A DNA stretch of 64,000 nt from Tremella fuciformis (taxonomy: Eukaryota; Basidiomycota; Tremellomycetes; Tremellales; Tremellaceae): assembly GCA_032768795.1 (NCBI GenBank), contig CP136499.1, positions 434,001 to 498,000 on the forward strand, written 5' to 3'. The notes beneath the pieces were generated by a model that saw only the letters and a list, made by a program, of their open reading frames with translations, ran no database searches and had not been told where the DNA came from. Positions 8,224 through 30,360 of the stretch are shown in pieces. Position 1 is the first letter of the stretch, and each line of letters opens with the position of its first letter. The position numbers were made by a program, and so were the translations under genes.

Positions 8224-8387
8224 TGTTACACAACGATGAGAGCGATGCATTCATCCATCTCTGCAGTTCTCTACTTATGAGCTGTCGCTCTGCTCAAGCC
8301 ATCTACATAAGGTTACTCATTTGGCCGCAAGAGGCAATTCTGACCCTATGAGGCGTCCTCGGGGTCCTCGGGGCCTATTGTTCAACA
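8224..8387 (-). repeat. Copia 3' LTR (chimeric)
   Basis: 164 bp. On the plus strand its first ~35 bases match the solo LTR at 15128 at three diagnostic positions (C, G, A at offsets 11, 20 and 31), and the remainder matches the other Copia LTR at 13749. The switch lies within about 8255-8267. Paired LTRs made by one reverse-transcription event should not differ in this patterned way. Confidence 0.85.
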
Positions 8388-11300
8388 CTCCCCCTCGAAG
8401 TCTGCAGGCTGCAGGTAGCCGCGGCGAGCCCGGTGGTGGTGCCAAGGGCCCGTTGGGCGTTCCCAAGCCTGCTGATCTTCGCACCAGGACAATATAGGCC
8501 CAAGATCGCACGTCGCGAGCGTCGCACGGTCCATAGGCCTGCCTCCTTCAGGCTGATGGGAAGGCGTCCCGCCGCTCTCCATCAATACCGACCCAAAATC
8601 GATGATCTCGGTGTCTGCCGGTAGCCCTGATTCTCCTTGATGTTCTCCAGCTCCCCCTGCATGCATACAGTCTCTCACTGCCCATGCGCATCCAGCGAAG
8701 CGTTGCTGATGAGCGAGCTGATGGGTTTGACTAGCGGCATTTCGGCGTTTTGGCTTGACCACGTGGTGTGGCAGACGATTTGGAGCGCGACTGACTTTGT
8801 CATTCAACGTCTTCTCACTACCGTCGACGTCTTCTAGATCGCTGATTGCGGCCGCTAGGTGGACGACAGCGCGCTCCGCGCCGGCAGACGGACGGCCCAG
8901 GCTCAGAGCTTCAAAATGGCGGGCGTGCGCGGCAGCCGGGAGCGACTTGGTGAGGATGTCCGCCTTCTGGTCCGCAGAGCTGACGTACCGCAGGCTGACT
9001 TTGCCTGTGTCGACAAGTTCCCGGATCAAATGATGTTTTATGTCGATATGTTTGGTCCGAGAGTGAGTTGTGGGCTGCCCTGCAAGTCTGATGGACCCCT
9101 GGTTGTCGCAGGAGAGCGGTGTTGGTGACCTCTGCTCGAATCCCAGCTCACCGAGCAGATTCCTGAGCCAAACCGCCTCCTTCGCAGCCTCGGCTACAGC
9201 GATGTATTCGGCCTCAACCGTCGATGTCGAGACCGTGGCTTGTCTGCGAGACGACCAGGTGATCGGCGAGCCTCTGAACTCCATCAACCAGCCTGTGGTT
9301 GATCGCCGAGTGTCCTTGCAACCCGCCCAGTCCGAATCTACCCAGCCCTGCAGCCCGCCGTCGCCGCCACCCAGCCTTAGCCCGACGGTCCGTGTGTGGG
9401 CTAGGTAGGTCAGGACGCCTTGTGCGAGGTCCCAGTGCTGACGGGTAGGTGCTGCGAGCGCTCGGGATAGATACGAGGCCGCGAACATGACGTCCGGGCG
9501 GGTGCAGCCTGCTAGCCATAGGAGACATCCGACAAGTTCTTGATAGGGCGTTAGGGCCGTCGACACGTCCTCTGCATCGATCTTGGCATCCTGCGGCAAC
9601 GGTGTTGATCTGGTGCGTCGCCGAGCGTGCTCTGGGAACCTCTCGAGCACCCTGTCGATGTATGCGGGCTGACTCAGCCAGATCGTCCGCCTAGCCTTGT
9701 CCTGCGATACCTTCATCCCAAGCACGGTTCCGACGTTGCCTATGACAGTGATCGTCCACTCAGCCTTTAGGGCGGTCCACAGGTCGTCTATCTCCCCCTG
9801 CGATGATGCGGCAATCACGATGTCGTCGACGTAGACCAAGACAAGCACGATTCGGCCTTGTCGGTCCTGCCGCACATACAGTCCCCAGTCACCGTTCGTC
9901 CTCAGGAAGCCCTGTCGATGTAAGACTCGTCCTAGCTCTTCCCACCAGTTCCTTGCTGACTGCTTTAGGCCGTACAGGCTCTTCAACAGCAGCAGAGCGT
10001 CGCAACCTGGTCTCCGCCGCATCCCGTCCGGATACCGAATGTAGACCTCTGTGTCGATTGGGCTGTTCAGATACGCTCCTTCGACGTCGGCCTGTGCGAC
10101 AATCATGCGGTCGGCTGCAGCGATGGCTAGCAACAGTCTCAGAGATCCGAGACGGCCTACCGGCGCGAACGTCTCTTCAAAATCGACGCCCGGCACCTGC
10201 GAGAAGCCCTGTGCGACAAGCCTAGCCTTGTGTTTGACGACGTGGCCGTCGGCATCGGTCTTGACTTTGAATACCCAACGCGATCCGACTGCCTTGCGAT
10301 CTGCAGGAAGTTTGACCTCTTGCCATGTCCCCTTACTCTCGATGTTCGCAATTTCCTTCTCCATGGCGGCAATCCACTCTCCTCTGTCATCGCTAGCCAT
10401 CGCCTCGGCTAGGTTCCTGGGATCTACAGGCATCACGGGGCCGTCGGCGGCATTGGCGGATAGGAAGGCGAAAGGGCTATGCAGCCGCTCAACGATCGCA
10501 CCGAACTTTGCGGGCGCTTTCTTCTCGCGGACGGGCCGTCCGACGGTATTGGCGGCCACGGGAGGTGCCGGCGGGGTCTCGACGACTGGTACATACGTCC
10601 ACCTGTCGGCAACGGGAATCCTGGAACGATTGGTGGCTACAGGAAGACGGGATGGACGGGGGACCCGAGGCTGCTCGGGTGTGTTGGACACGGCAACTGC
10701 GGGATCGTTGATTGTGAGCTCTTCCTCTGAGATCTCTACTCCAGCGACATTTTTCTGAGCTTGCCCCGGCTCAGGCTGATCTCCAGGTACCTCCAGATCG
10801 TCTCTATCATCATCCTGGCTTGAATGACTTGCGATCTTGCCTCCCATCGATCCAACCGGTATGAGCTGTGCTTGGTCGCTTTGGGTCACGTGACCGACAT
10901 CGGCCTCATCGTCCTCCGACATCTCAAGCACTTTGACGTCTCTTCGATGGGCAATCTCGCCCGTGGCGTCAAGCTGCACAATCCATCCGCTCTGGGTCTC
11001 ACTCTGACCGAGTATCCGACACGCCTCGCCGCGCTCTATCGTAAACGACGCCTTGCGGCGAATCTGAGACGGGATCTGCGCATGACACCTTTGCCCGAAT
11101 CGCAGGACGGAATCTAGGCCTCTCTCCCGCCCTGTAAGCGCGCTCCAAGCCGATAAGCCCGTCCTGGCTGACACAGACAGCTTCATGATGATTACTGCGG
11201 CGTAACGGGCTGCGAAAGACCAGTAGGAATGAGGCAAGCGGCTATCGGCCAGCATGGCGGCTATCATGTCTTTGACGGTGCGTATCGTTCGTTCAGCCGC

Positions 11301-13403: not shown

Positions 13404-13748
13404 CGCGATAAAGGTATGTAAGGGATGGTCTGTGCACACGCGGGGGTGCTGATTTTGATAGGTATGACGGCAGAGTGTGCGTCAGCGGAACGATACCTCG
13501 CTGGGGACGACTTTCGCGATAGAGCGCCTGTTACTAGGCCCGACGCTCTCCCTGTGTGCTTACGAGGTGTTCTCGTTATTCCTCTAGCCTTCTCTGACGG
13601 CTAGGAACTTCCTCGAGCGTCCGCGGCGATGTAGACGGCAACGGCTCGGTTTGTGGCGGTGTCTAGAGCGTCTGCGGCGACGGCGACGGCTCGATAGACA
13701 GCCCGTATGCTCTCTGTAGTCTCGGGCTGAGACTTGGGACTTTTAATC

Positions 13749-13912
13749 TGTTACACAATGATGAGAGCTATGCATTCGTCCATCTCTGCAGTTCTCTACT
13801 TATGAGCTGTCGCTCTGCTCAAGCCATCTACATAAGGTTACTCATTTGGCCGCAAGAGGCAATTCTGACCCTATGAGGCGTCCTCGGGGTCCTCGGGGCC
13901 TATTGTTCAACA
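13749..13912 (-). repeat. Copia 5' LTR
   Basis: 164 bp, TGTT...AACA. It is identical to the LTR at 8224 except at three positions near one end. The sequence immediately following on the plus strand (GTGATGAG...) is the start of duplicated segment copy 2. Confidence 0.9.
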
Positions 13913-15127
13913 GTGATGAGATATGGGAATGTCCATTCTGACGATCGCCATACATTTATGGCCCGCCGAAAGTGCCACGCGATTTCCCCCCTCTCGCTTC
14001 GATGCGTCCACTTCATTCGTAACTATTCGACTTTCTCATTGCTCTCGCCATTATACTCATGCACACACGACCGCCCATCGCAAAGCCATCTTTGCCCATT
14101 CGCAACTATTCGACATTGCTTTCGTGCCGAGCAAAACGTATCACAGTGCTGTTTGAGTGAATGCGGCTTCGCACATATGGTGAAGTCATAATACCGTATG
14201 TACCTGTCGCTGATCTCCTCGCAGGCCGCTCTTACCCCAATGCAGTGTCAGCAGCTGGAAGCAAACGTGACACATTACATCGCTGGAGCTGCGACTTTCC
14301 TCGACGCCCTTCCGGAACATCAAGACGTCACTGAGCTTCCCGGACATGTTCAAAACACCTCCAACATGCTCATTGATCTTCAACAACTCGAACATCGTCT
14401 ACCCCCTCCGTTCTATGGTCGCCTGCGTCTTCGATTGCATCGCATTGTCAATGAGCTACAGGACATCGAGGACTTCCTGGTCGATAGACAAGACGATCAG
14501 GCCGGACAAGCCATGGAAGGGCCAGTATGGGCTCCCCTTGCTTCAGGAGGACGACAGCTCGTGCTGCGTGAGGATACTCTTCGTCAATTGGCTGATCTTG
14601 GGTTTACGGACGAAGAGATTGGTGGATGGATGGGGTGTTCGCGTAGAACTGTTGTTCGCAGGCGGTGTCAGTGGGGAATATCAAAGCGGGACTTTGCCGA
14701 TGTCAGCGATGAGGAGCTCACTCGGGTGTGTAGATTCTGCGTTTCTTCTCTTGCAGCTTGTGCTGATGGCAGTATATCGAGAGAGTCTTGACATGGGGCA
14801 GTGGAGAGGAGGGCTTGCAGGGCGTGACCTCTGGCCTGGAGGTGATGGGTATCAAGGCTCCTCGAGCTCGCCTGAGAGAACTTCTTCGGCAATTCGATCG
14901 CGGACAACTGGGGGTTGCTCCCCCTCCAGTCGTTCGACGAGTGTATACCGTTCCTTGCATCAATGCCATGTGGCATATCGACGGGCATCACAAGCTCATT
15001 CGCTGGAAGATTGTCATACATGGGGGTATCGACGGATTCTCGCGCATGATCGTCTACTTGCGGGCCAGTGACAACAACCGAGCTGAAACGCACCTCATGG
15101 CGTTCCGAGAGGGTGTCGCTACCTTTG
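13913..15127 (+). repeat. Duplicated 1215-bp segment, copy 2
   Basis: Partner of 7009-8223. It contains TACATT (13951-13956), the left inverted repeat of the DNA transposon and the 5' part of its transposase gene, and ends with CTTTG directly before a solo LTR. Unlike copy 1 it is continuous with the rest of the transposon. Confidence 0.9.
13957..14068 (+). repeat. Left terminal inverted repeat of the DNA transposon
   Basis: 112 bp matching the reverse complement of 30035-30268 once the LTR there is removed. Two adjacent bases near the tip (CC instead of GA) differ from both the right end and copy 1. The repeat includes one ACTATTCGA motif that recurs across the element. Confidence 0.88.
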
Positions 15128-16015
15128 TGTTACACAACGATGAGAGCGATGCATTCATCCATCTCTGCAGCTCTCCGTATATGAGCTGTCGCTCTGCTCA
15201 AGCTATCTACATAAGGTTACTCATTTGGCCGCAAGAGGCAATTCTGACCCTATGAGGCGTTCACGGTGCTTATTGTTCAACACTTTGGACTGCCGAACAG
15301 AGTAAGAGCAGATCGTGGTGGCGAGAACTTGGGCATCAAAGTCATGATGGAGCAACAAAGAGGTGGGTCCGCTATTCGACATTATTCGATATCATTTGGC
15401 TAACAACGGAACAGGTCTACATCGAGGATCATTCATACAGGGCCGCTCTGTTCACAATCAGAGGATCGAGAGACTGTGGGTCGATCTACAGAGATGGTGC
15501 ACAAATCGGTATCGAGGCATTTTTGACTATCTCGAGCGACAACGGCTGCTCGACATCGACGATCCTTTCCATCTCTGGGCGTTGCACTTCTGCTACCTTC
15601 CAATGATCAACGGAAGCTTGATTTTCTTTGCCAACCGTTGGAACAGGCATCGGCTACGAACAGCCCAGTCTGACTCGCCAATGAAGATATGGGCGCGTTG
15701 TGGGTTATGCTATTACAGTGTTCACCTTCTTGTCTCGCTAAATTACAGGCGCAAAAGCGCTTTCTTTCGATCCCCTGGCGGAGCCTGCATGATGACCCTT
15801 ATGTTCACGTTGACCCGATCCTTGGCGGGGTTCAGGACGAGGTAGTGGAGTACATGGCATCAGCCGCTTTCCTTGATGCTATGGGTGAAGTTGCAGGTCA
15901 AGGGTGGCCGCCTCAACCCGACTTCGGTGTCGCAAGATTTGCCCGAGTGATCATCCATCTTGGTCGTCTTGTTGAAGCTCGTTTCCCGCAATATGCACCT
16001 CTTTTCCGCCCTTGA
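14198..16015 (+). pseudogene. DDE integrase-core transposase (interrupted by a solo LTR)
   Basis: Exon 1 14198-14725, intron 14726-14772, exon 2 14773-15127 continuing at 15288-15362 after removal of the LTR and one target copy, intron 15363-15414, then exon 3 from 15415. A helix-turn-helix-like segment (FTDEEIGGWMGCSRRTV) lies near residue 140-160. The catalytic triad is visible as WHIDGHH, VRADRGGEN and NQRIERLW. This is the family annotated as putative integrase core domain. After about 15700 coding signal moves to another frame (DPYVHVDPILGG... to the stop at 16015); I could not find an in-phase intron there, so a frameshift or unusual splice is possible. The LTR makes this copy non-functional unless other copies supply transposase. 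Confidence 0.82.
15128..15282 (-). repeat. Solo Copia-type LTR inside the transposase gene
   Basis: 155 bp, TGTT...AACA, flanked by the perfect 5-bp duplication CTTTG (15123-15127 and 15283-15287). It is related to the 164-bp Copia LTRs but differs by substitutions and a shorter end. Removing it with one CTTTG restores an open frame through the second catalytic Asp. Confidence 0.9.
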
Positions 16016-16189
16016 AGTATATCTTGCCCGTGCTTCTGTGTCTACCTTATATTTGCCTTCCTCATCTCGAATCAAGTATTCGAGTATGGTGGTCAGGAAC
16101 GTGCACATGTGTGTATCGCTGAGCTAAAGTCGTTGCTTGGCGACTGATATGAATGTCACTTTTACCTTTTCATCTTGAAGCTAGCTACA

Positions 16190-16549
16190 ATGGTTGCCGA
16201 TCTTGCTACCTACGATGACCTCGCATCAATTGGCTCTGAGAGCCAAGTGGACTGTCAGTGGACTCTGTCAAAGACGAACGCTTAGTCTCAGCTAACGTTA
16301 GCAGCACTTTTGTCCCACGAATCGGTGAAGACAACCTCTGACTCCGCAGCGGCTCCTTCTCAAGACCCGAGTTGTGTCTTGTCAGAGGTGCCCTGGGATT
16401 CGTACAAAGAAGTCGACAAGTCGTCCAAGTACGACATACCCGATCTAGACGCATCTACTTGTTGGCGGACGAGAGAGTTCTATCGAGTCATGGACCAGGC
16501 AATGCGTCTCTCGGACTGGAGGGACGAAGGTGGCACTACGTCCTGCTAG
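16190..16549 (+). CDS. Transposon gene 2: small acidic protein
   Basis: Exon 1 is 16190-16253, a 51-nt intron follows (16254-16304, GTCAGT donor, GCTAAC branch, GCAG acceptor), and exon 2 is 16305-16549. The product is 102 aa, acidic, with no recognised motif and a single WRTREFYRVMDQAMRLSDW-like helical stretch near the C terminus. It lies about 175 bp downstream of the transposase in the same direction and inside the inverted repeats, so it belongs to the element. Its function is unknown. Confidence 0.6.
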
Positions 16550-17024
16550 TCGCCTGTAGCTTACACACAGTGGCCGCGCAGCCGTTTCTGTACATACCTC
16601 TTTGAGTGGCGAGATCATCGATTGGTGTAGAGGGCATCTGTCTTGTAGGGATAGCTCCGCTCATGTGAATGCTACCAAATTGGCATCTCAGGGTCATTCA
16701 TTTTCCGGCATTGACTATTACGTGCGTTCCAAAATTTCTTCATACATACAATTCAACGACTTGCCTTGCTTCACTGTTCACCCCATTGCAGCTATTCGAG
16801 GCTCGAGTGAGCTCAAGCTGAGCTCCCCTTCCACGCGAGGGTCAAAGGACCCTCTGCTGATGCCACCTTGGAGTGGATCATGAAGGAACGAGATCACCGC
16901 GAAACTCCGTGGTGAGATCAACGTGATCGCAACGAGCCAACCCGTTTCTATTCGAAACTATTCGAGAATCCCTCACACTTGCATATTTCCTTGCTACAGT
17001 TCAAGAAAGGCAGCCGTTACGACG
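16550..17024 (+). other. Spacer between transposon genes 2 and 3
   Basis: About 475 bp without a convincing gene. It contains three copies of the element-wide motif CTATTCGA (near 16793, 16950 and 16960) just upstream of gene 3, a position compatible with a promoter or protein-binding region. Confidence 0.5.
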
Positions 17025-18866
17025 ATGAACGAAGGTGGTATGCAAGCGGATGCTGCGACTCGCGCGTTGGTATGCCCTTCTCTCTGCTCGGCCGATACTC
17101 CGGACTGATGCTTCAGTTCGCCGCCTTCATGAACTTTCAGGCTCAGATGCAGGCCGCCCCTGGCGCTCAGAACCAAGCAGAGGCTCACGCGCCCGCTGGC
17201 GGTCAGCCTCCCGGAATGGGGGTCCGGATGCCAGAGCCTGGCAATGATGCACTCATCGACCCTCCTCCGCCTGACATCCCGGCAGGAGCAAGGGCATAGC
17301 CCCGAGGGGGTATCATGGCGGGTGTCAATGTGGTCGATGGCCCCGTCGATGGCAATCACGGCCCTCCTCCCTACAACGCACCAGAGGTCGACATCGGTCT
17401 ACCTGCTCTACCCAGTGGGCCTGCCGTGGCGGGACCTAGGCTGCACGGTCCTCCTCGCATCGCCCGACAAGGCCATGGATATCCCAGAGGGCCTGTGCCT
17501 GCTACAGCTGGAGGAAGAGGTCAGGCTGTTGGAGGCCAAGGGATCGGCGGCCTCAATGCCAGGAAGTCCACTCAGACCAAGCCTCTCAGGCTGGGCCGAC
17601 AAGGCAAGGTAGAGTCGGCCTCCGGCTCCTGGTCATGCTGATGTGGCAGATTTGCTATATTCCGGATCGCTCGATGCTCTGGTTCCCCTCTGAGATGCCT
17701 ACGCCCGAAGCAGAGCAAGCACGTTTTGAGATGCGACACGGAGATTGCAAGAAACTGATGGCATTTTGCGATGCCCGCAACTATGTGCGATACTGTGCCA
17801 GCATCCGCAAGGAAATGACTCCCGCCGAGGTGAAGGCTTCTGTTCTTCGGGCATTTGATGGCACGGGAACACCTCGTGAGAAGCTGGCCGGAGGATTCAG
17901 GTAAAGTCGCGATCTTCGAAAGTATTCAAGCTTATTCTTTAGCTGGGCTGAAATCGTTGATTCCCCTGCGACCTTCATTTTTCGCGCCAAAAATACTCAA
18001 GGAGACGGACAGCTCATCGCAAGCCTGGCCTCCACACCGCAACCCTGCATCTTCATCTTCCCTCACCAGGACGATCATGCTTTCCGTGCCCGTCTGTTCG
18101 AGCGATTGGACCGGAAAGACACTCTCCACGCGTCAACTCCCGAGAGAAGCGAGGAAGAATCAGGTGAAGAGGACCCACGAGGCGAGAAGGGCAAGGACTT
18201 TGAGGAGTGCATCATTTGCAAAGGCAAATTCCTCTACAAGGACTTTGCAGCTCATTCGGAGAGATGTCTTGAGCAAGAGGCAAGCCTTGAAGAGTCTCGG
18301 AAAGCCTGGTCTCTGACGTACAGGACCAAAGGCTCGCTTTGGAGATGGCCGAGCAGGAAAAGAAAGACAAGGACATGGAGCAGCGCAGGCACCTGCAGTG
18401 GACCAAGCGATCAATCCAGGCTCGCCGCCATGGGGAAGACGAGCCCTTTTCCAGTGTTTTTGAGATCCTCGACCGCCCGGCTGGAGAGGAGAGAGCTCTC
18501 GAGGGCAACACTCTGCTGAGCGGTCGCAGTGGCCGTTTGCAATCCGCCGCTCCTCCTACCTCTCACCTTCTTTCCGATAGCGACAGCGACATCCTCCCCA
18601 TGCCCGTAGCCCCAAGTGGCAAGCCTACCCGCGGAAAGCGGGGGGTAAGTCTGCCCATCGAAGCCCGTGGAAGGCAGGACACTCGCGATCCCAAGCGGCG
18701 CAAGGTTGCCAAGGTCAACATAGAGGCTGATCCTCTACCCCCCTCGACCATAGGCAAGAAGCTCCGGACAACTCGGACAGCCGAGGCTGCCCGACGTGCA
18801 GCCTATGAACTCCAAGAGGAGCGAGACCTTCTGCGAGAGATGGGTGAGCTGGCTCAATCGAATTGA
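17025..18866 (+). CDS. Transposon gene 3: C2HC zinc-finger protein
   Basis: My model: exons 17025-17069, 17117-17221, 17300-17608, 17650-17900, 17943-18293 and 18332-18866, giving about 531 aa. Introns 17609-17649, 17901-17942 and 18294-18331 join different frames without a stop. The intron 17222-17299 is less certain (weak donor) and is proposed because an in-frame TAG lies at 17297. The protein has a Gly/Pro/Gln-rich N-terminal half and a C2HC finger (CIICKGKF...HSERC, spacing C-x2-C-x11-H-x3-C). A Glu/Lys-rich helical stretch (LALEMAEQEKKDKDMEQ) follows, then a basic C-terminal region. The finger suggests nucleic-acid or protein binding; a role in transposition is inferred from position only. 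Confidence 0.65.
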
Positions 18867-19345
18867 ACTGACCAACAGAGACTCGGCCAGGTTCATCGAG
18901 GCAGCAAGCTATCCGCGACCTCGTGTACGAGGACTGATTCTATGCCTGTAGACTGGGCGTCCTGGGCCACGGCTTGAGCTTGGAATGCATGATGTGACTT
19001 GGCCTGGATCTTTTTGTGTCTATGCAAGTGATCCACCGTGCTTTGACTGGAGGAAGAATTGATGAGGCCATATGCAGTCTTGGCTGATATGCGGTTTATG
19101 AAGTTACAGCTGCAGGCCATTCGACTCTATTCGAGTTTGTAGTTTGCGGGAAGTGGAGGGCAGGACGTCAGTCACGCCTTGCCATCCGTTGCCTAGCAAC
19201 GAGTGGTGATCGTCAAGCGGCATGTATCAGTGAAAGTCGCCCTCATAGAAACTATTCGAGACTAACGGGATTGTTCTTGATACTTGACCTTCTATTGTTC
19301 TCCTAAGCATCAACAACACTCACGTCTTCAACTGCTCTAGTTCTC
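18867..19345 (+). other. Spacer between transposon genes 3 and 4
   Basis: Non-coding. Two CTATTCGAG motifs occur, near 19127 and 19251, the second about 95 bp upstream of the gene 4 start codon. Confidence 0.5.
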
Positions 19346-19738
19346 ATGTTCAGCGCAATGGGCCCATTGCTCAAGTTCAACGTCCCAGACCCCAGCGCCT
19401 CGGCCAGCAACACCACGCAAGGTGGAACCGGCGACCTTGGAAGCTCCTTGAGGAAGAGGCGACGTGACGGCCCGGCGGCTGAGAGGTCCGGGGAACAAGG
19501 ACCTGTAAGGGCAAGGGCATGTCTCAAAATGCATCTCGTGTGGCTGACGTGTGCCCAGAGCCTGAGGTCGAAGAGGCGTCGGCAGCCCGCAGTACCGCAA
19601 GAGCCAGCTGAGCGGGATGTGCCCGACGACCGCAGTGCTGAGCAAGGCGGGCACGCCTTGCTCACCACGGACGTAGGAGCGGCGGCCCGCGAGGACATGG
19701 CGAGTGCGGTCAGCAGGGTAGACGAGCGTCGACCGGAT

Positions 19739-20247
19739 TGTCACGCCTGCGGGTAGTCTGCGGTAGCGAGAGGTCTGCCTTGGGTACTGAAGGGGTTTAG
19801 TCTCTGGCTCGTAGAGCTTGATGACTGCCTTAGGTACTGAGGTGACTGAAGTGCTGGGTTAAGACCAACTGAGTGACTTTGTGTGAAGAGAAGACACAAG
19901 ATCCATTGCTGAAGAAGAAGGGGGGAAGGGCCAGATGAGGCCTCCTTTTATACCCTTCACATCTAAAAGGTAGGACTAATTAAAGAGGGGTCGTGAGGGA
20001 TTTACTGACCAATCAGATAAATGCCTCACTTAGACCACCGTGGGAAACTACAAGCTAGCCAATAGGAAAAATGCCTCAAAGGTGGAGGCTGACTAAGCTC
20101 TTTGAACTAGCCAATAGGGAAAATGCCTCAGAGGTGGAGGCTTACTAAGCAAGGTGGAGGCTGACTCATCAACTGATAAACGTTCTCCAAATAACACATC
20201 ATTCCATGAGTCATGTTTTCTCCTTTTCCTCATCACGAGTCATGACA
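19739..20247. repeat. Solo LTR, 509 bp
   Basis: Begins TGTCACG and ends ATGACA, flanked by a perfect CGGAT duplication (19734-19738 and 20248-20252). Near 20050-20160 it contains two to three imperfect direct repeats built around GCCAATAGGRAAAATGCCTCA. Its sequence is unlike the 513-bp Gypsy LTR, so it comes from another, probably Gypsy-type, family. It splits exon 2 of transposon gene 4. Confidence 0.88.
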
Positions 20248-20721
20248 CGGATGGCTCGTTTGGCGACTCGGCCGCGGCCCCTATGATTGATGGGGAAGCG
20301 CTGGCGGATGTTGGAGCAGCGGGTCAGTGTTGGAAGGGCTGATGACATAGACACATGAGAGCTGATTGTCATAGACGCGTTTGAGGCTGATACGCCTCCC
20401 AGTGATTCGAGCTGCTACTGAGTCTATGCAGCCAAGCTGACGTTCTGCAGCTCCAGAGCAGATTGAAGCTCTAGCGGCGCTCGAGGCAGTGATCAAGGAC
20501 ATGCCCAACATGTCAGTTGCAACTCGCACCACCCCGCCTCCGCCAAGCCCTGGCCCCGGCGAATCGTCATCATCGCCTCTATTGAAGATTGATCCGCTGC
20601 TGGCAAGGCCTGCCACGTCCATGCATCATGTCAGTCTAGGTGGGACGGCCGGCGGAGATGTGGAAGATGGAGAAGGTGTGGTCGTCCGACCGCATGGATG
20701 TGCCGAAGAGGATGCAAGTAG

Positions 20722-21234
20722 TGTCACGACGGACGTAGGGAGAGCACATGGAAGCCACGTGGGGAGACGGAGCTCGGACTCGTTGATTCAACGCATCACT
20801 CGCCGAGCTCACCGAGGGACGACGGATACTTAGGAAGACTGGGCGCGCGATACGTTCCGTAGTCTTCTCCCAATTGTTGTTCTCTGCAGACACGTAGACT
20901 GCCTGCTCCGTCCCGTCGCTTGGCTTGCCAGTGACACCGAGTCCCCCGCCGAGTTCCCCGTCTACCTCCCTCAACTCGCTCGCGCTCGTCGAGTTCACCT
21001 TCCCGCTCGCCGAGTTCAGCGAGTCCCTCGCCGCACCCCTCGCTCAACCCGTTCACCTCCTTGAGCTCAGCGAGTCCCTCGCCGAGCCCCTCGCTCACCT
21101 CCCCGAGCTCAGCGAGTCCCTCGCCGAGCTCCTCGCCCAACTCGCTCATACCTATCGACGTCAACGACCCCCACGCCGACCGTTCGGAGTACGTGCCCGC
21201 CGGGCCCTGGACAGAGAAGGCGGTCGTCGTGACA
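20722..21234 (+). repeat. Gypsy 5' LTR
   Basis: 513 bp with 10-bp inverted ends TGTCACGACG/CGTCGTGACA. It is dense in CTCGCCGAG-like words. Positions 20859-20874 are complementary to the sequence just after the LTR, which would place the RNA 5' end near 20859 if self-priming is used. Confidence 0.93.
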
Positions 21235-21236
21235 GT

Positions 21237-21252
21237 ATTGGGAGAAGACTAC
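21237..21252 (+). promoter_or_regulatory. Candidate self-primer binding site
   Basis: ATTGGGAGAAGACTAC starts three bases after the 5' LTR and is the exact reverse complement of 20859-20874 inside the LTR (16 of 16). Tf1 of fission yeast and related chromodomain Gypsy elements prime reverse transcription by folding the RNA 5' end onto such a site. No tRNA-type site beginning TGG is evident at this position. Confidence 0.7.
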
Positions 21253-21345
21253 TACCGTCGGACACGTACCCAGACCGCTGAGTCCTGTTTCTCCTCGTTC
21301 ATCTCGTCGAGGCCTCTCTCTCTCCCTCTCTGAGCCCTCCTCATC

Positions 21346-22611
21346 ATGTTTCCTTCCGCACCTGAATCCTCTCGTCTACCCAGGAGATCCCCCAGGCTCA
21401 ATGAGCCCGAGGAGGAGCCTCCTGCACCACCCATTCCCCCTGCCGTGACCATGACTAGGGAGGAAGAAGGCGGGGCTACCCCGCCTGACACTCCCAGGGC
21501 GTCAGAGTCTCGGCGAGCTCGCCGAGGCTTGGGCCCAATGCCTACACCTCCCGCCGACATCAGTGATGCGGCGAGCATGGCGCTCTTCTTGAAAGAGCTC
21601 GAGCGGTGGAATATCCGCCGCGAAGCCTTTGAGGAAGCCCGCCTCGAGCTTCAGGAGGAAGAAGAGTTCCTCCGCCCAAGAGGGCGAGCTCCCTCGTTCA
21701 GCCCGGCGAGTTCAGCGAGCAGCGCGCCGAAGGAGCCGAAGGTCAAGGAGCCTGACACCCTCTCTGGGGAGAATCCCGCCAAGCTGAAAGGGTTCCTGTT
21801 GCAGTGCGAGCTGATGTTCAGTTTGCATGGGGGCAGGTACCAGTCGGAGGAGATCATGGTTTCGTTCATGATCTCGTACCTGCGGGGACCGGCTCTTCAG
21901 TCTGTCGAGCCGATGGTAGGTATGCGGCCGCGACCCGCCGAGCTCGCAACGGTGGACGCGTTCAAAAGGTACCTCAAGTCCGCCTTCGGCGACCCGGACG
22001 AACGGGGTACGGCAAAGCGACAACTTCGAGCGCTGCGGCAGACCAAGTCAGCTGCCGAGCACTTCGCTAAGGTCAGGGAGCTTGTTGCGGTGGCTGGTTT
22101 CACTGATCAGGTCGCGATTGTGGACTGGGCCATTCATGGGCTCAAGTCTCATCTTAAGGACGAGATCGCTAAGCGCGGCGAGTTCTACTCGCTGACCGAG
22201 CTCGTCGAGTTTATTGTGCCTCTAGACAATCGCCTCCGTCATCGCGAGGAGGAGAGGAAGCTGGAGGAGGCTGCTGCGGCGAAGGCTGAAAAGCACAAGA
22301 CGGAGTATGCCAAGGCTGAAGCGCCAGCGCGGCGCCCATGGGCTGAGCGCTTGGGCGCGTCGCTCCCGCCGGCTCGCCTCAGCGAGCAGCGCGGCGAGTC
22401 CTCGGCGAGTTCGGGCCCTTCTGGGTCAGACTTGCTGAAGTCAACGCGCAACCCCGATGGGTCTCTGACGGAGGCCGAGAGGGAGCGCCGTTTGCACAGC
22501 GGGCTCTGCTTGCGGTGCGGGCAGGGCGGCCACCAGCTGGCTAACTGCCCCACCGCTAAGCCGAGGCCGCTGCCCCCGATTCCCGCCCAGGGACAGGCCC
22601 CAAAAGCCTGA
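21346..22611 (+). CDS. gag: Gypsy Gag
   Basis: A 421-aa frame from the ATG at 21346 with a Pro/Glu-rich N terminus and a central capsid-like helical region (residues ~130-300, including FLLQCELMFSLHGGRY and LRALRQTKSAAEHF). A C-terminal zinc knuckle CLRCGQGGHQLANC (C-x2-C-x4-H-x4-C) follows. It ends at TGA 22609-22611, immediately after a slippery heptamer that leads into the pol frame. Confidence 0.9.
   Translation: MFPSAPESSRLPRRSPRLNEPEEEPPAPPIPPAVTMTREEEGGATPPDTPRASESRRARRGLGPMPTPPADISDAASMALFLKELERWNIRREAFEEARLELQEEEEFLRPRGRAPSFSPASSASSAPKEPKVKEPDTLSGENPAKLKGFLLQCELMFSLHGGRYQSEEIMVSFMISYLRGPALQSVEPMVGMRPRPAELATVDAFKRYLKSAFGDPDERGTAKRQLRALRQTKSAAEHFAKVRELVAVAGFTDQVAIVDWAIHGLKSHLKDEIAKRGEFYSLTELVEFIVPLDNRLRHREEERKLEEAAAAKAEKHKTEYAKAEAPARRPWAERLGASLPPARLSEQRGESSASSGPSGSDLLKSTRNPDGSLTEAERERRLHSGLCLRCGQGGHQLANCPTAKPRPLPPIPAQGQAPKA
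22599..22605 (+). promoter_or_regulatory. -1 ribosomal frameshift heptamer (CCCAAAA)
   Basis: In the gag frame the sequence reads C CCA AAA, a canonical X-XXY-YYZ heptamer, four bases before the gag stop. Slipping back one base enters a frame with no stop from 22605 through the pol start region, giving a Gag-Pol fusion. No ATG begins pol in this frame near 22.7 kb, which supports frameshifting over reinitiation. Confidence 0.75.
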
Positions 22612-25600
22612 GGGATGGTGGACAACAGCTCGGCGAGCATCATCCCTTTCCGCATCGACTCGCCGCGACCGTAATCTTTGACTGTTCCCGTTCTCCTTCA
22701 TCCCAGACCGATGATACCCGTATACCCGTGACTCACACTGATTCCCCACAAGGTTGGGCAGCCTCTGAGAGGCTCCTAGACAACCCCACGCACGCTGTTG
22801 TCGCAGGTCGCATCAGCGGGCATCCCGCGAAGATCCTCCTGGATTCAGGAGCCTCCGCTAACTTCCTCGCCAAGTCGTTCGCCGAGCGACACCGCATTGC
22901 CCTCAATGCGTACGACAAGCCCGTCGGACTCACCTTGTTCGACGGAGTAGAGTCGTCTGATGGCCCGCTGACTCACTTCTCTCGCGAGCGAGTCGAGGTG
23001 GGCCAGTATGCTGGCACAGCAAGGTTCGAGCTCACGCGCTTGAATGGAGCTGATGCAGTGTTGGGCTACCCGTGGCTGCGAACTCGCCGAGTTGTAATCG
23101 ACTTCGGCGAAGGAACTGTCACGGGAGCACCCTCGCAAGGTTGGGCAGAGCCCGTTCCCACTTCCAATGTCGCCGAGTCATCCCCTTCATCTCTCTCCCT
23201 CTCGCCGCCGCCGAGCTCCACCGTGTCCCCTGAATCCACCGAGTCCACCGTGTCCCCTGAAGTCGCCGAGTCTATCGAGTTCCCTACATCCGCTGTGTCC
23301 GCCGAGTCCCCTGTGTCCGCTGTTCCCCGCTCTCACCCCTGCCCCGCTGTCCCTACCGAGTCCGCTGATCCCGAGCTGCCTCCAACCTTGCCTTCCCCCT
23401 GCTTGTCGACCAAGGATGATCGAGCAGGACAGTCGCCGAGCGCTGAGCCCTCGCTGAGGAAGCAGCAGCCGGGGAAGAAGCGAGTCAGGAAGAGGCGGAT
23501 GGGAACAAAGAAACGCGCCTTCTCCCGCTCCAACTCTATTCCCGTGACCCACCCATGCCGCTGGCCATTCGTCGCGGTTGCTGAGGAGCTGAAACTATGC
23601 GCGGTCAGCACAGACTCGCCGAGCTCGCTGAGGTTCGACCAGTTGGACGAGCTCAGCTCATGGCCCTCTTTCGAGCCGCCCGCCGAACTCTCTGAGGCTG
23701 AGATTCAGCTGATTGCCGCCAGCGTTCCTGACCAGTACCTGGAGTTTCTCGACGTCTTCCACCCCAGGAAAGGCGTCGAGACCCTCGCGCCACACCGAGC
23801 GTATGACATGAAGATCGAGCTGAAGGCGGGCAGCTCGCTCAAGCTTGCCCCGCTCTACGAGGTCGCCCAAGATCAGAAGGAAGCCATGAGGCAAATCCTC
23901 GAGCGAGAAGAAGCCGCAGGCCGCATCCGGCCTAGCAACTCGCCGTACGGCTCGCCGACCTTCTGCGTGCGTAAGACTGATGGTGTGAACTGGCGAATGG
24001 TGGTGGACTACCGCCATTTGAACAGTGCCACCGTTCCTGATGCTTACCCTGTCCCGCTGATCTCTCAAGTCATCTCTGATCTCGGCGGCTCTGAGTGGTT
24101 TTCCTGCTTTGACCTAGTCTCGGCGTATCAATTGCTAAGGCTCGCCGAGGGGTTTGAGAGCCTCACCGCTTTCCGCACGCCGTTCGGCATGTACGAGTCG
24201 CTAGTCGTGCGCGATGGGCTGCGGAACGCGCCAGCCGTCTTTCAGCACTTCCTGAATGAGCTTTTCAGTGATCTCAGGCAGTGGGTCACGGTATACATCG
24301 ACGACATCATCGTCCACGCCAAGACGCTCGAAGAGCTTCGCCGAGTCACTCGGCTAGTTCTGGAGCGGGTGCGAGGAACCTCCCTGTTCTTGAAGGCGAG
24401 TAAGTGTCGGTTTGAGCAGAGATCCGTCAAGTTTCTTGGCTTCATGATCTCCAAGGACGGCGTGGCGGCTGATCCGGGCTACGTCCAAGGGGTCCAAGAG
24501 GCTTCGAGGCCCAAGGATCTCCATGAGGTGCGACGCTTTCTGGGAATGGCGAGCTACTATCGGCGGTTCGTTCCTCACTTCGCTAAGGTCGCCGGGCCGC
24601 TACACCATCTGACGAAAGCGTCGGTTGGTTTCCATTGGGGTGAGGAGCAGGAACAGGCGTTCCAGGCGTTGAAGGAGAAACTGAGCCAGGCTCCGGTGCT
24701 CGCCTTCTTCAACCCGGAGTTGCCAACGATTGTGCAGACTGACGCATCGGCCTATGGCTGGGGCTTCGTCATCTCGCAAGTCAACTCGGCGAATGAGGAG
24801 CACCCCGTGGCCATCGAGTCGGGCTCGTTCAAAGGCGCCGAGTTGAACTACACGGTGACTGAGAAGGAGTTCCTGGCTATCGTTCACGCCTTCCGGCGCA
24901 AGCGGCATCTGTTGTCTCAGGTTCATTCCACGGTCATCACTGACCACTTGAATCTTACTTACTGGATGGAGCCGCGGCAGCTGAACCCTCGCCAGGCTAG
25001 ATGGGTTGAGATCTTAGCCGGGTTCGATTACAAAATCGTGTATCGCCCTGGTAAGGAGGGCGAGCTTCCCGATGCGCTCTCCCGTGACTCGGCATATCTC
25101 CCAGGGCCATTGATGCAGCAGCCGCAGAACTTCATCCAGGCACTCCCCACCGCCGACTCTTCCTCCACGGTCTCGTCCTCCCTCGGCCATCTCCTCCGTG
25201 CAGCAACACTCGGCGAGATCGGTGTCGAGGAGGAGGAGGAGGAAGAGGTCGGCGAGGAACGCGTTGAGGTCGCTGAGTTGTCCCCGGTCCTGGCTGAGTT
25301 AACCTCTGACGCGCCTACTCTCGCCTCGACCCACCCTGTCCTGTTGGGATTTTGCCGAAGGCTCGGCTTCTCTGGGGAAGCGCTCTTGCAGCGTGACCCC
25401 GAGGGAAGGCTGCGAGTCGACGGACGACTGTACGTGGAACCGGGGCCAGAACGGGTGCAGATCCTGAAGGGACGGCACGAAGCTATCCTCGCAGGGCACC
25501 CGGGCGTTGCGAAGACTCTCGAGTTGGTGAAGCGCGACTACGCGTGGCTTGGCCTTCGGCGCGACGTGGAGGCCTTCGTCCGCGCATGCGCAGTATGTCA

Positions 25601-26810
25601 GCGGACCAAGACCGACCGACACCGGGCTCACGGCTTCCTCCAGCCACTGGAGATAGCTGAGAGGCCCTGGGCATCCATCTCCATGGACTTTATCGAGCCC
25701 CTGCCGGTCTCTAACGGTTTTGACTCGATTCTGGTGGTTGTTGACAGACTAACGAAGTGGGCGATTTTCATCCCGACGACCACTCGGCTCAACTCGGCGG
25801 GACTCGCCGAGTTGATCATTGATCACGTGGTCTGTCAACACGGGCTCCCGCAATCCATCGTCTCTGATCGAGGTTCCAAGTTCACCAGTAAGCTGTGGGC
25901 CAACCTGTGCAAGGCCTTGGGTATTAAGCTGTCCTTGTCCACGGCTTTCCATCCGCAGACTGATGGGCAAACTGAGCGGGTAAATCAAGTTCTCGAGCAG
26001 TACCTTCGGGTCTTCTCGACCTATCAGCAAGACAACTGGGCTAAGCTTTTGCCGTGCGCATCGTTCTCGTACAACAACTGGAAGCACTCGGCCATCGAGA
26101 TGTCACCGTTTGTAGCAAACTTTGGGTACTCGCCGAGGTGGACGGAGGACTTGGTGAACTCGGAGAACTCGGAGAGGGAGGGTGCGGATGCCGGTGAACG
26201 ACTGGGACTGCGGAAGGCGACGGAGCTGAGTGATCTGCATGAGCTCTGCCGGGCTAACATTGAGGCGGCGAACCGCGATTATGCGAGGCACTACAATGCT
26301 AAGCACTCGTCGCCGCCCAGCTTCAAGATCGGTGACTCGGTGCTCCTCTCGCTGAAGAACATCGAGACTCGGCGACCGATGAAGAAGCTGGACCTCAAGT
26401 TCGGTGGACCGTTCGAGATCATCGAGCAGGTCAACCCGGTAACGTATCGCCTCGCTCTCCCTCCCTCCATGAAGTGCCACGACGTCTTCCACGTCAACCT
26501 CCTGAAACCCTTCCAACAGCCTACCTTGCCCGGCCAGTCGTACGAGCCTCCCGACCCGGTGGAAGTGGACAGCGAGCTGGGAGAGAGCTGGGAGGTCGCG
26601 GCGATCCTGGATTCTCGAATACGCCGTGGACGCCTTGAGTACCTCGTTGAGTGGTTGGGCTTTGAGCTCACGGATGAGCACGCGACTTGGGAGCCGTTAG
26701 CTCATGTGAGCGAGTCGGCCGCCGAGCTCGTCGCGGACTTCCACGCCGCTCACCCAGAGAAGCCATCAAGTGCGCCGAGGCCTCGGCGAGGCGCTCGCCG
26801 AGCCGTATGA
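22605..26810 (+). CDS. pol: Gypsy Pol with C-terminal chromodomain
   Basis: The frame is open from the frameshift site to TGA at 26808-26810. Ordered blocks: protease (LLDSGASANFLA), reverse transcriptase (VVDYRHLN, FGMYESLVV, YIDDIIVH), RNase H (QTDASAYGWGF), integrase with HHCC zinc finger (HPGVAKTLELV...CAVCQRTK) and DDE core (DFIEPLP, SDRGSKFTS, GQTERVNQ). A chromodomain (WEVAAILDSRIRRGRLEYL...HATWEPL) lies near the end. A long Ser/Pro/Glu linker separates protease and reverse transcriptase. Domain order and chromodomain place it with chromoviruses. The frame looks complete and undamaged. Confidence 0.93.
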   Translation, partial: SLRDGGQQLGEHHPFPHRLAATVIFDCSRSPSSQTDDTRIPVTHTDSPQGWAASERLLDNPTHAVVAGRISGHPAKILLDSGASANFLAKSFAERHRIALNAYDKPVGLTLFDGVESSDGPLTHFSRERVEVGQYAGTARFELTRLNGADAVLGYPWLRTRRVVIDFGEGTVTGAPSQGWAEPVPTSNVAESSPSSLSLSPPPSSTVSPESTESTVSPEVAESIEFPTSAVSAESPVSAVPRSHPCPAVPTESADPELPPTLPSPCLSTKDDRAGQSPSAEPSLRKQQPGKKRVRKRRMGTKKRAFSRSNSIPVTHPCRWPFVAVAEELKLCAVSTDSPSSLRFDQLDELSSWPSFEPPAELSEAEIQLIAASVPDQYLEFLDVFHPRKGVETLAPHRAYDMKIELKAGSSLKLAPLYEVAQDQKEAMRQILEREEAAGRIRPSNSPYGSPTFCVRKTDGVNWRMVVDYRHLNSATVPDAYPVPLISQVISDLGGSEWFSCFDLVSAYQLLRLAEGFESLTAFRTPFGMYESLVVRDGLRNAPAVFQHFLNELFSDLRQWVTVYIDDIIVHAKTLEELRRVTRLVLERVRGTSLFLKASKCRFEQRSVKFLGFMISKDGVAADPGYVQGVQEASRPKDLHEVRRFLGMASYYRRFVPHFAKVAGPLHHLTKASVGFHWGEEQEQAFQALKEKLSQAPVLAFFNPELPTIVQTDASAYGWGFVISQVNSANEEHPVAIESGSFKGAELNYTVTEKEFLAIVHAFRRKRHLLSQVHSTVITDHLNLTYWMEPRQLNPRQARWVEILAGFDYKIVYRPGKEGELPDALSRDSAYLPGPLMQQPQNFIQALPTADSSSTVSSSLGHLLRAATLGEIGVEEEEEEEVGEERVEVAELSPVLAELTSDAPTLASTHPVLLGFCRRLGFSGEALLQRDPEGRLRVDGRLYVEPGPERVQILKGRHEAILAGHPGVAKTLELVKRDYAWLGLRRDVEAFVRACAVCQRTKTDRHRAHGFLQPLEIAERPWASISMDFIEPLPVSNGFDSILVVVDRLTKWAIFIPTTTRLNSAGLAELIIDHVVCQHGLPQSIVSDRGSKFTSKLWANLCKALGIKLSLSTAFHPQTDGQTERVNQVLEQYLRVFSTYQQDNWAKLLPCASFSYNNWKHSAIEMSPFVANFGYSPRWTEDLVNSENSEREGADAGERLGLRKATELSDLHELCRANIEAANRDYARHYNAKHSSPPSFKIGDSVLLSLKNIETRRPMKKLDLKFGGPFEIIEQVNPVTYRLALPPSMKCHDVFHVNLLKPFQQPTLPGQSYEPPDPVEVDSELGESWEVAAILDSRIRRGRLEYLVEWLGFELTDEHATWEPLAHVSESAAELVADFHAAHPEKPSSAPRPRRGARRAV

Positions 26811-26917
26811 ATACTGCGTATTCCTGCCTGAATGATGCGTTCACGAAGATGATGCACAGAACACTCTATAATCAACGACTATGAACACCTCTTCCCCTCT
26901 TTCCCCCCCCTCCTCTC

Positions 26918-28592
26918 CTATCGTCCTCCCGACCCACCGGGGGCCGGTCCCTCGTTGAGGTCCTCAAGACCCCACTCGCTCAGATCCTCCCCAAGCATGC
27001 GCCGCAGCTCATTGACGGCGTACTGACGCAGTCGGGGGTTGTCCGGGCTGCGCGCGAGCGCCGCGAGGCCCTGGGCGGCTGCAAAGTCGCCTGGACCGAT
27101 GTGGCGTTCCGCAGACCGCTGAGGTGTCGCGGGCGCGTCGCGCCGAGGTGTCGCCGGGGGGTCGCCGCGCAGTGGCGTCCGCTCGGCGGTCGGCGAGCTG
27201 GACGGCGCCTCCCCATCCTTCAGAGTACAGCGGCCGGTTGTGCAGGTGTAGCACTTTCGGCCTATTGTGCCCGGCGGGACGAGGCAGCGGCGTCCCTCTC
27301 GTCTACACCGACGACACGGCCGCTCGGCGTCTACCGCGTCCTTGTGGTGGTCCTGCTGATAAGTATCTACCGCTGGTTGTGACGGGTACTGACGAGGATC
27401 TTTGCTGGCGTCCGATTCTCGTGCCGCCCGGCTCGTCGCGGGGTCGCTGGAGGCGCTGCCGGTCTCCGGGAAGGTGTCGCGGCCGCCGCAGGCGTCCGCG
27501 GCGCCGCTCGCGGTGTCGGTCTCCGCGCCCCCTCCCCCTCTCCCCTCCTCTCCCCCTCCTCTCTCCCCTTGCCCTTCCAGCCCATCGCCGCCTGCAGTGC
27601 CTCCATGGAGGCCTCCATCCTCTCGGCCGCCGCCTGCAGCGCGGCCTCAGCCGCCTCCTCCGCCTCCATGTCGACGTCGTTGGCCCCGCTGACCTCCCTG
27701 ACCTCGCTCACTTCGCCGCGCGAGCCGCTTGCCTCTCCTTGCGGTCGGCGACTAGGTCGTGTGCGCGGCGGCGTGGGTAGGCGCTCGCCCAAGGGTAAGT
27801 CATGCACGACGGAGTAAACTACGTCGCACATTGGGGCCTCCGAGTCGGGTCGGTCGAAGGGGTTGAGGTAGGCGGTGGCTCCAGCCCGCCAGCTTGCCTC
27901 GGCGTCGAACACGCTATCGGTTCGTTCGATTCCTGCCCGTCAGTCTCATCTCTTCTTGATAGTGCCGCTGTGGCTTACGCCGGCGCCGCCCCATCCGCTC
28001 GCCCTCTCTTTCGTCCACCGGCAGAGCAGGCTCGAGCTCGAGCCTCTCCGCGCCGCCCTCGTCCACCTCCATCTCCTCGTCCTCCTGCTCGAGCTGCGTC
28101 AGCGGCGAGCTGCCGCCATCGCCCTCCTCCTCCTCCTCCTCCCCCTCCCCCTCCTCCTCCCCCTCCTCCTCCTCCTCCTCCCCGTCCACCACTCCCCTCA
28201 TCACCTCCCCGGCAACCTCCCCCTCGCCGAGCTCTTCGATCTCGAGCTCGTCGCTTGCCGAGCGCTCTCGACGAGTGCCGCGCCCGCGACCGAAAGTCCG
28301 CTGGGTGCCGTCGAATCCTTCCCGTCAGCTCTGCATCTCCCTCTTCTCGGCCACTCACGTCGCGCCGGCTGCTCCTCTCGCCCCTCTTCCCCCCCTCGCT
28401 CCGCCCCCTGGCCCTGCACAACCAGGGCTACCCTCGACGGCACGACGAACCGCCCGCCCCACCCTTCGCGTCAGCCACCAGTTCGCTCGCTCGGCGCGCT
28501 GCGCGCGCCGACTCACTGGTCTGCCCCTCCGCCTGGGCTCGTCGTCTCGCCGCGCTCGCCTTGCGCGTTGCCGCTGGTGTTGTTGGGGCCAT
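26918..28592 (-). CDS. Antisense spliced passenger gene in the Gypsy element: Cys-cluster protein
   Basis: Five exons on the minus strand: 28592-28517, 28463-28359, 28317-27979, 27932-27394 and 27355-26918, about 498 aa. The introns have GTGAGT, GTGAGT, GTAAGC and GTCAGT donors, three have CTGAC branch points, and all joins keep frame while bypassing stops. The N terminus is Ala/Arg-rich (MAPTTPAATRKASAARRRA). The middle has a poly-Glu tract encoded by the CT-rich run at 28130-28190 and an Ala/Glu helix. The last exon carries PCRRCRREGRRC...CYTCTTGRCTL (C-x2-C-x6-C-x10-C-x2-C-x4-C). The gene lies wholly between the pol stop and the 3' LTR. Cysteine layout and a phase-0 intron just upstream of it match transposon gene 4. 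Probably DNA-binding; role in the element unknown. Confidence 0.78.
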
Positions 28593-28853
28593 GTTGTTGC
28601 TGGCCGAGTGATGAGATAACGGAGAATGGAAAAGCTGAGTCCTCTGTCCACTTGTCCTCGGCCGTGTGTTTGGTTGCCCAGCAACTAGCGCGCCTCGCCG
28701 CATCAACATCGTACCTGAAAGGACCTCGCTGACCGCCTCGCCGAGTCCCTCACCGAGCCCCTCGCCGAGCCCCTCGTCGACCTCGCCGACTCCGCCGCCG
28801 ACTTCCACAACCACGACTATCTCGCAGGAGCTCGATCGTAAGGTTGGGCAGAG

Positions 28854-29366
28854 TGTCACGACGGACGTAGGGAGAGCACATGGAAGCCACGTGGGGAGAC
28901 GGAGCTCGGACTCGTTGATTCAACGCATCACTCGCCGAGCTCACCGAGGGACGACGGATACTTAGGAAGACTGGGCGCGCGATACGTTCCGTAGTCTTCT
29001 CCCAATTGTTGTTCTCTGCAGACACGTAGACTGCCTGCTCCGTCCCGTCGCTTGGCTTGCCAGTGACACCGAGTCCCCCGCCGAGTTCCCCGTCTACCTC
29101 CCTCAACTCGCTCGCGCTCGTCGAGTTCACCTTCCCGCTCGCCGAGTTCAGCGAGTCCCTCGCCGCACCCCTCGCTCAACCCGTTCACCTCCTTGAGCTC
29201 AGCGAGTCCCTCGCCGAGCCCCTCGCTCACCTCCCCGAGCTCAGCGAGTCCCTCGCCGAGCTCCTCGCCCAACTCGCTCATACCTATCGACGTCAACGAC
29301 CCCCACGCCGACCGTTCGGAGTACGTGCCCGCCGGGCCCTGGACAGAGAAGGCGGTCGTCGTGACA
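28854..29366 (+). repeat. Gypsy 3' LTR
   Basis: 513 bp, apparently identical to the 5' LTR with a constant offset of 8132. It is preceded by a purine-rich tract (AAGGTTGGGCAGAG) that can serve as plus-strand primer and followed by AGTAG. Confidence 0.93.
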
Positions 29367-29866
29367 AGTAGGGCCGGGCCGTCTGGGGGTCAGTTGTCCC
29401 GTATGGGTCGTGGAGAAAAGACAGATGCGGAGCTTCGGGTATGTCCCAACTGAACGAGACTGCGCAGACTATTCGAGATTCTAATGGACTTCAGAAGGCT
29501 CTGAGCAAACCGCATGTCGAATACTCGGAGCTCCGGCGTTGCTATCGTTGCCAGCTGAACGGCCTCCGCTGCATCCGAACCCGCGGTAAAGGCGGGAAAT
29601 ACAGCAAGAAGTGTGCGACCTGTAATCAAGAGTGCACCCTCACGCCCTACTCCGAGACCCTGTCACAGCTTTCACGGCTACAGGAGGTCAGTAGGTCTAT
29701 TCAAGACCACCTGCCAACATTGCTTTCAGTGGGGATGGAACCTGCTCGGCGGCAGGAGGCGGCAGACAAGATCATGGGCAACGTCCCAAAGCTTGCTGCC
29801 GTAGGTGCTTCTCTGGGTTGGTTGAGGAACAACAAAGGCGAGAAGATGTACGTCTCTCCATTTTAG

Positions 29867-30034
29867 CGGGTAACTTGTAGCTTTGTATGATCATATCAGT
29901 ACATGCACAAACATTGCGGTGAGAAATCGTCAGAGCAAGATCAGTTAAGAGTAAGACATCAAGACTATTCGAGGCTATTCGAGATTCTTGAGTGAGGGAG
30001 TCGGTGGCAGCTAAGCTCTGCAGGCGGGTGAGTT
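29867..30034 (+). other. 3' spacer of the DNA transposon
   Basis: Non-coding stretch after gene 4 with two CTATTCGAG motifs (near 29966 and 29976), ending where the right inverted repeat begins. Confidence 0.5.
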
Positions 30035-30268
30035 GTGTGTGCATGAGTATAATGGCGAGAGCAATGAGAAAGTCGAATAGTTACGAATGAAGTGGACGCA
30101 TCGAAGCGAGAGGGGGGAAATCGTGTTGACGTGAGATATGAGTCGCATCCGACATATCCTACGAGATGGTAATGGGTCCTACTAGCTGACGGAGTTTCTC
30201 GGTAATTACCCTATGACTTGAGGTGGCGGCACCGCTAACAAATCGCGTGGCACTTTCGGCTCGCCATA
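30035..30268 (-). repeat. Right terminal inverted repeat of the DNA transposon
   Basis: 112 bp after removal of a 117-bp LTR plus 5-bp duplication. It matches the reverse complement of 13957-14068. The tip reads CTTTCGGCTCGCCATA and is followed by TACATT (30269-30274), the target duplication. Confidence 0.88.
30124..30240. repeat. Small solo LTR in the right inverted repeat
   Basis: 117 bp, TGTTGAC...GCTAACA, flanked by AATCG on both sides (30119-30123 and 30241-30245). Excising it with one AATCG restores the continuous inverted repeat, which confirms that it inserted after the transposon. Confidence 0.82.
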
Positions 30269-30360
30269 TACATTCGGCGTTTGCCGCCGTTTCCAATCGG
30301 AGCTACGCCTGCTGTCCTACTCGTAGTTGGTTTCAATTCCATATACCGACTCTACTGCTC

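Follow-up and report, generated by a model that had tools for sequence, protein, structure and literature searches.

The DNA analysed here, called the window throughout, is a stretch of 64,000 nucleotides from the basidiomycete Tremella fuciformis (assembly GCA_032768795.1, contig CP136499.1, positions 434,001 to 498,000; C10:434001-498000 in the searched genome of 28.1 Mb and 11 contigs). Positions 13957-30268 are a single transposon copy of 16.3 kb, of which four nested insertions take 9.4 kb, and 6,866 bp of its own sequence is left after their removal. This copy carries a transposase gene and three further genes, all on the + strand, between terminal inverted repeats (TIRs), together with short repeated motifs, hereafter iterons. 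Its own features are as follows, the exon borders of the transposase having been read by eye.

13951-13956, left target-site duplication TACATT
13957-14071, + strand, left TIR, starting TATGGC and holding the iteron pair 14015/14025
14015-14113, + strand, iteron pairs ATTCG-x5-ATTCGA at 14015/14025 and 14098/14108
14240-16015, + strand, transposase gene: helix-turn-helix (HTH) exon 14240-14725, DDE exon from 14773, intron 15363-15414, last exons to 16015
15374-15389, + strand, iteron pair in the transposase intron
16190-16549, + strand, gene 2, a predicted gene model of about 102 aa with one intron and a similar open reading frame (ORF) in relic cp3 (see below)
16792-16965, + strand, iteron at 16792 plus a pair at 16948/16958, 3' of gene 2 and ahead of the presumed gene 3 start
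17130-18866, + strand, gene 3, C2HC-finger protein, finger at about 18208-18267, start and exon borders uncertain
19119-19259, + strand, iteron pair 19119/19129 and single iteron 19252, 3' of gene 3
29441-29866, + strand, gene 4, an open frame of 141 aa past the nested retrotransposon, Cys cluster C-x2-C-x6-C-x13-C-x2-C-x3-C
29469-29476, + strand, single iteron near the start of gene 4
29965-29982, + strand, iteron pair 3' of gene 4
30032-30268, - strand, right TIR, interrupted by a 116-bp insertion (30124-30239, duplication AAATCG)
30073-30088, - strand, iteron pair in the right TIR, mirror of 14015/14025
30269-30274, right target-site duplication TACATT

The sequence-only reading of this locus had described one DNA transposon of about 6.9 kb without its nested insertions, whose integrase-core DDE transposase is accompanied by three co-oriented accessory genes and which is bounded by 112-bp inverted repeats and a TACATT duplication, and this outline was confirmed. 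The 6-bp duplication abuts both ends, and the right TIR finishes with GCCATA at 30268. The two arms align over 115 nt with three mismatches (112 identical positions) when 122 nt in the right arm, made up of the 116-bp insertion and a 6-bp AAATCG repeat, are excluded.

In a Pfam scan, PF24764 (rva_4) matched two pieces of the window transposase (6e-25 and 4e-29) and was the best model, with 6e-25 against 0.084 for rve, and HTH_23 matched the N-terminal exon at 1e-4, under its curated cut-off. The catalytic arrangement is DD34E, with D and E 34 residues apart as counted across the intron. A solo long terminal repeat (LTR) at 15128-15282 separates the two PF24764 core pieces; therefore, a working enzyme is not expected from the window copy, which is probably dead. 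The position of the first D and the presence of an HHCC pattern were checked on the hand-spliced transposase of a sister family described below, in which the first D is at residue 237 and no HHCC pattern precedes it. Of 7,099 candidates, 2,077 were related to this sister protein at E<=1e-5, with fungi, a sea urchin and fish among the matches listed, and no solved structure related to the protein was found up to E 10. According to the available parts of Kojima 2023 (PMC10045372), IS3EU elements end in TA..TA, usually produce 6-bp duplications and lack HHCC, and their first catalytic D lies 100-300 residues into the protein; the available text of Kojima 2025 (PMC12730594) describes 6-bp duplications, TIRs of >30 bp and TAYGG..CCRTA ends for IS3EU elements of rust fungi. 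The window element shows the 6-bp TACATT duplication, TATGGC..GCCATA ends and a 115-nt TIR. From these ends and duplications, the PF24764 protein is taken to be an IS3EU/GingerRoot-type transposase. The PF24764 transposase, 6-bp duplications and TAYGG..CCRTA-type ends agree with what has been published for fungal members of the known IS3EU superfamily, and the element is not an unclassified transposon. The hint of novelty in the earlier reading, that members of this integrase-core family usually appear in annotation as stand-alone domain proteins, was thus not upheld, as ends, duplication and transposase fit IS3EU and the four-ORF element Styx has been published.

A genome search with the left-end DNA returned four places, namely the window, a duplicate upstream of the element, the right arm and one diverged end. 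Two truncated relics of the window family lie on the same contig (cp2, near 500.6-503.8 kb, and cp3, near 737.1-739.5 kb), and in both, sequence 69-87% identical to parts of genes 2-4 follows the same order. Relic cp3 retains the 3' end of the transposase along with inner TIR sequence and is without the finger part of gene 3. The transposase core piece matched 23 places, leaving 21 others, some of them fragments, after subtraction of the window and its duplicate. Ten of the 21 were fetched with 20 kb around each (1.5 kb more for one), and in five of these ten sister loci both ends were found with a perfect 6-bp duplication (CAAGGC, CTGCGG, CGCGAC, AGGTTC and CAGCCT). Three of the five delimited copies contain nested insertions. 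At a sixth locus a CGACGC duplication was recognised by eye, with five extra bases at the left end, and at the remaining four the right end was not found within the fetched DNA.

The sister copies fall into two lineages. Lineage A resembles the window element in its PF24764-type transposase, TATGG start and 6-bp duplications. It differs in its length of 4.07 kb (4,070 bp in the sole uninterrupted delimited copy, C1:3812117-3816186, duplication CGCGAC), in its right end CCGTCATA, in lacking iterons and in an accessory gene that runs opposite to the transposase and has no Pfam match. A piece of this gene matched 12 other places at E<1e-9. Each of these lies no more than 20 kb from one of 11 other transposase matches, on the strand opposite to that match. 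No likeness to genes 3 and 4 was detected: pieces of the lineage A gene reached z at most 2.8 in 18 comparisons with pieces of genes 3-4 or of the accessory ORFs of the 7.2-kb family described next. The second lineage comprises, besides the window element as placed by the transposase tree, a family of 7,201 bp with copies flanked by AGGTTC and CAGCCT, and this family carries a C2HC gene on the strand opposite to its transposase with the same C-x2-C-x11-H-x3-C spacing as gene 3. The window transposase was grouped with this 7.2-kb family at a support of 1.000 (FastTree) in an unrooted tree of 17 of 19 rows, two short rows having been dropped and the window row being partial. The copy at C4:1181112-1188312 has a further ORF on the + strand and, in the gap between converging ORFs, a palindromic cluster of iterons, TGACCTGATCAGGTCA.

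Gene 3 and the sister C2HC gene share two collinear segments with scores of 55 and 58, compared with shuffle maxima of 47 and 42, and 0 of 1,000 shuffles reached the score of either segment; a third exon that was compared scored at chance level (795 of 1,000 shuffles). The finger exon of the sister gene was found at three places, one per family locus. Two exons of this gene gave ratios of nonsynonymous to synonymous substitution rates (dN/dS) of 0.19 and 0.09, by which the sister C2HC gene is constrained. Likewise, gene 4 is under constraint as judged from dN/dS values of 0.15 and 0.16 against the two relics (stop and gapped codons excluded), with 1.39 and 1.46 for the other two frames of its region against cp3. 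Coding support for gene 3 appears mixed. Its N-terminal part gave 0.13 over 41 codons against cp3 and its C-terminal part 0.39 against cp2, and for 17944-18863 the three frames gave 0.83, 0.97 and 0.46, the last being the frame of the C-terminal part. For gene 2, the support is limited to relic ORFs that start and end similarly. The products of genes 3 and 4 are putative zinc-binding proteins.

The iterons were found by counting 8-mers without a prior guess. Of the top 8-mer, CTATTCGA, 12 copies lie within the element's own 6.9 kb and two in the remaining 40.7 kb; the whole window holds 16 copies, compared with 1.2 expected, a count reached in 0 of 100 shuffles, and the top 8-mer in 100 random sequences of like composition occurred at most seven times. 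All six pairs of ATTCG lying 5-40 bp apart on the + strand are spaced by exactly 10 bp, and a mirrored pair is found in the right inverted repeat, whereas the 35 copies of ATTCG in the rest of the window form no 10-bp pair. Genome-wide, ATTCGA-x4-ATTCGA occurs nine times (four in the element, one in each relic and three elsewhere), and the backwards-pattern control occurs 0 times. In the 7.2-kb family a different motif, TGACCTGA, is present nine times in each of two copies and once in 12.8 kb of flank, above the chance maximum of seven, and in the 7.2-kb copy neighbouring motifs are 11 bp apart in four cases. The 19-bp pattern TGACCTGA-x3-TGACCTGA occurs 12 times in 28.1 Mb, four times at each of the three loci of the C2HC family, and its control 0 times. 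No 8-mer exceeded chance in three lineage A families, which are without the C2HC gene. In the literature searched, none of the 35 papers that name IS3EU also mentions 'subterminal' or 'iteron'.

Taken as a whole, we consider it highly probable that the locus holds a broken, non-autonomous cut-and-paste transposon of the IS3EU superfamily of a fungus, with three extra genes and iterons. By analogy with the superfamily, the N-terminal part of an intact transposase would bind the inverted repeats, and the enzyme would excise the element and join it to staggered cuts 6 bp apart, which fits the delimited copies. The C2HC protein, the Cys-cluster protein or both may, in dimeric form, occupy the iterons along one face of the DNA, and such binding might set the expression of the element's genes or help to pair its ends; that zinc proteins bind iterons is offered here as a proposal. 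A further speculation, which we hold to be rather doubtful, is that a fungal IS3EU lineage acquired a zinc protein together with family-specific phased iterons in ends, introns and gene borders as an operator, and that protein and iteron vary jointly from one family to another (ATTCGA at 10 bp, TGACCTGA at 11 bp), so that each family would control or assemble only its own copies.

Several results weigh against this picture. No second full-length copy of the window family was found in the genome, and the rest of the transposase was not seen in either relic within the DNA fetched around them. The earlier expectation of full-length copies with the same ends, gene order and different 6-bp duplications was therefore borne out only in part: within the window family, gene order is preserved in the parts of genes 2-4 that the two truncated relics retain, and copies with intact ends and differing duplications are the five of the sister families. 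The C2HC exon of gene 3 gave a dN/dS of 0.88 against cp2, by which constraint is not indicated, pieces of genes 2-4 and of the sister accessory genes had no significant Pfam match, and the single-sequence fold prediction for gene 4 was poor (mean predicted local distance difference test score of 60). As for the iterons, their columns in the relics are not better conserved than other noncoding columns (97/136 vs 1,994/2,892, p 0.64), the relic counts of CTATTCGA, four and three, are not above the chance maximum of four, the sister iterons sit after genes and near one intron and not in the sister TIRs, and the link between iterons and accessory gene is drawn from two families with both and three with neither.

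It could well be, at slightly less than an even chance in our view, that the iterons arose incidentally through local 10- or 11-bp duplications, or act as signals in RNA, and are in either case unrelated to the zinc proteins. The lack of excess conservation in the relics and the positions of the sister iterons would agree with this, as would the strand bias of CTATTCGA, 11 of 12 copies being on the + strand. It is less easily reconciled with the exact one-turn phasing in both families despite unrelated core sequences, with the confinement of the 19-bp sister pattern to its own family in 28.1 Mb, or with the absence of phased iterons from the three families without the C2HC gene. It appears improbable that genes 2-4 belong to the host or are remnants of other nested elements caught between the inverted repeats, the transposase and its ends alone making up the true transposon, although a shorter IS3EU form does exist in the genome as the 4.07-kb copy, a full-length second copy of the window family is missing, and genes 3 and 4 showed no database relatives at E<=0.01 (0 of 854 and 0 of 40 candidates, respectively). 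At both other places where gene 4 was found, fragments of genes 2-4 follow the same order, in one case together with the transposase 3' end and inner TIR, the C2HC gene recurs between its own ends in a separate IS3EU family, and the iterons extend from the TIRs through the intergenic stretches. Moreover, pieces of genes 3 and 4 were found at no further genome place, in a search that also missed the remote sister C2HC gene. Polinton/Maverick elements encode their own DNA polymerase and virion-like genes, and no match to genes of these types was obtained in the ten window pieces scanned with Pfam. Membership of this or another integrase-like superfamily (Ginger1, Ginger2/TDD) is very improbable in view of the preference for PF24764 over rve, the TATGG..CCATA ends and the sister protein without HHCC before its first D, even though Polintons also produce 6-bp duplications (PMC10045372) and encode a Gypsy-integrase-like protein.

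Returning to the element as a fungal IS3EU transposon with accessory genes, one of the closest described systems is Styx of Zymoseptoria, an IS3EU-type element of 7,927 bp with a DDD/E transposase, TIRs, 6-bp duplications and four ORFs, including CCHC and GATA motifs (available text of PMC10853768). Its TIR is 36 bp compared with 115 here, its other accessory genes are named GATA and DUF3577, and iterons go unmentioned in the portion of that report available. With Styx published, a fungal IS3EU element of four genes, one of them for a finger protein, is already a known kind. The rust-fungus elements are likewise similar in their 6-bp duplications, TIRs of >30 bp, TAYGG..CCRTA ends and possession of accessory genes, which in the accessible part of Kojima 2025 (PMC12730594) are TET/JBP and alpha-kinase genes, the kinase running opposite to the transposase; neither TET/JBP nor alpha-kinase was matched by Pfam in the window pieces scanned.

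What may be new is the combination of a shared C2HC gene with family-specific, helically phased iterons. In En/Spm, TNPA and subterminal motifs provide a case of an element-encoded protein binding many short repeats of its own element, and this serves as an analogy only, since En/Spm differs in transposase superfamily and duplication length. The accessory genes of eukaryotic DNA transposons are, to our knowledge, mostly unexplained. Here an accessory C2HC gene recurs with the transposase in two families, with purifying selection in one and a distinct phased motif in both, and the two matched protein-site pairs make an accessory-gene role directly testable by binding. In addition, fungal PF24764 proteins gain defined ends and thereby become annotatable as IS3EU elements.

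The insertions into the element and the duplicate upstream of it comprise the following features, besides the 116-bp insertion at 30124-30239 in the right TIR, whose ends, within the 6-bp AAATCG duplication, are without clear inverted repeats.

7009-8223, + strand, copy of the left flank, left TIR and 5' transposase (equal to 13913-15127), with one in-frame TGA
15128-15282, + strand, solo LTR in the transposase, CTTTG duplication, LTR type as in the element 8224-13912
19739-20247, solo LTR of a multi-copy retrotransposon, CGGAT duplication
20722-29366, + strand, LTR retrotransposon, AGTAG duplication, its LTRs identical over 515 aligned bases

The copy at 7009-8223 is separated from 13913-15127 by a full LTR element at 8224-13912, putatively Copia-like by its ORF. 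The first 43 bases of the 5' LTR of this element match the solo LTR at 15128 and the remainder matches its own 3' LTR, and the flank at 7008/7009 is equivalent to an unbroken site. Because of this mosaic LTR and the unbroken flank, the arrangement at 7009-15284 is consistent with unequal crossing-over that involved the solo LTR and an LTR of the 8224-13912 element. Within the retrotransposon at 20722-29366, an antisense ORF of 242 aa (26918-27646, minus strand) has a Cys cluster resembling that of gene 4. It aligned to gene 4 with a score of 65, the best of 2,000 shuffles being 61, and it is present at eight places at 97-100% identity, its own one counted, and as diverged copies too. Its dN/dS was 0.52 and 0.90 in the ORF frame vs 0.54-1.96 in other frames. 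Elsewhere in the window, a perfect 42-bp direct repeat, with starts 65 bp apart, is located at 37758-37864.

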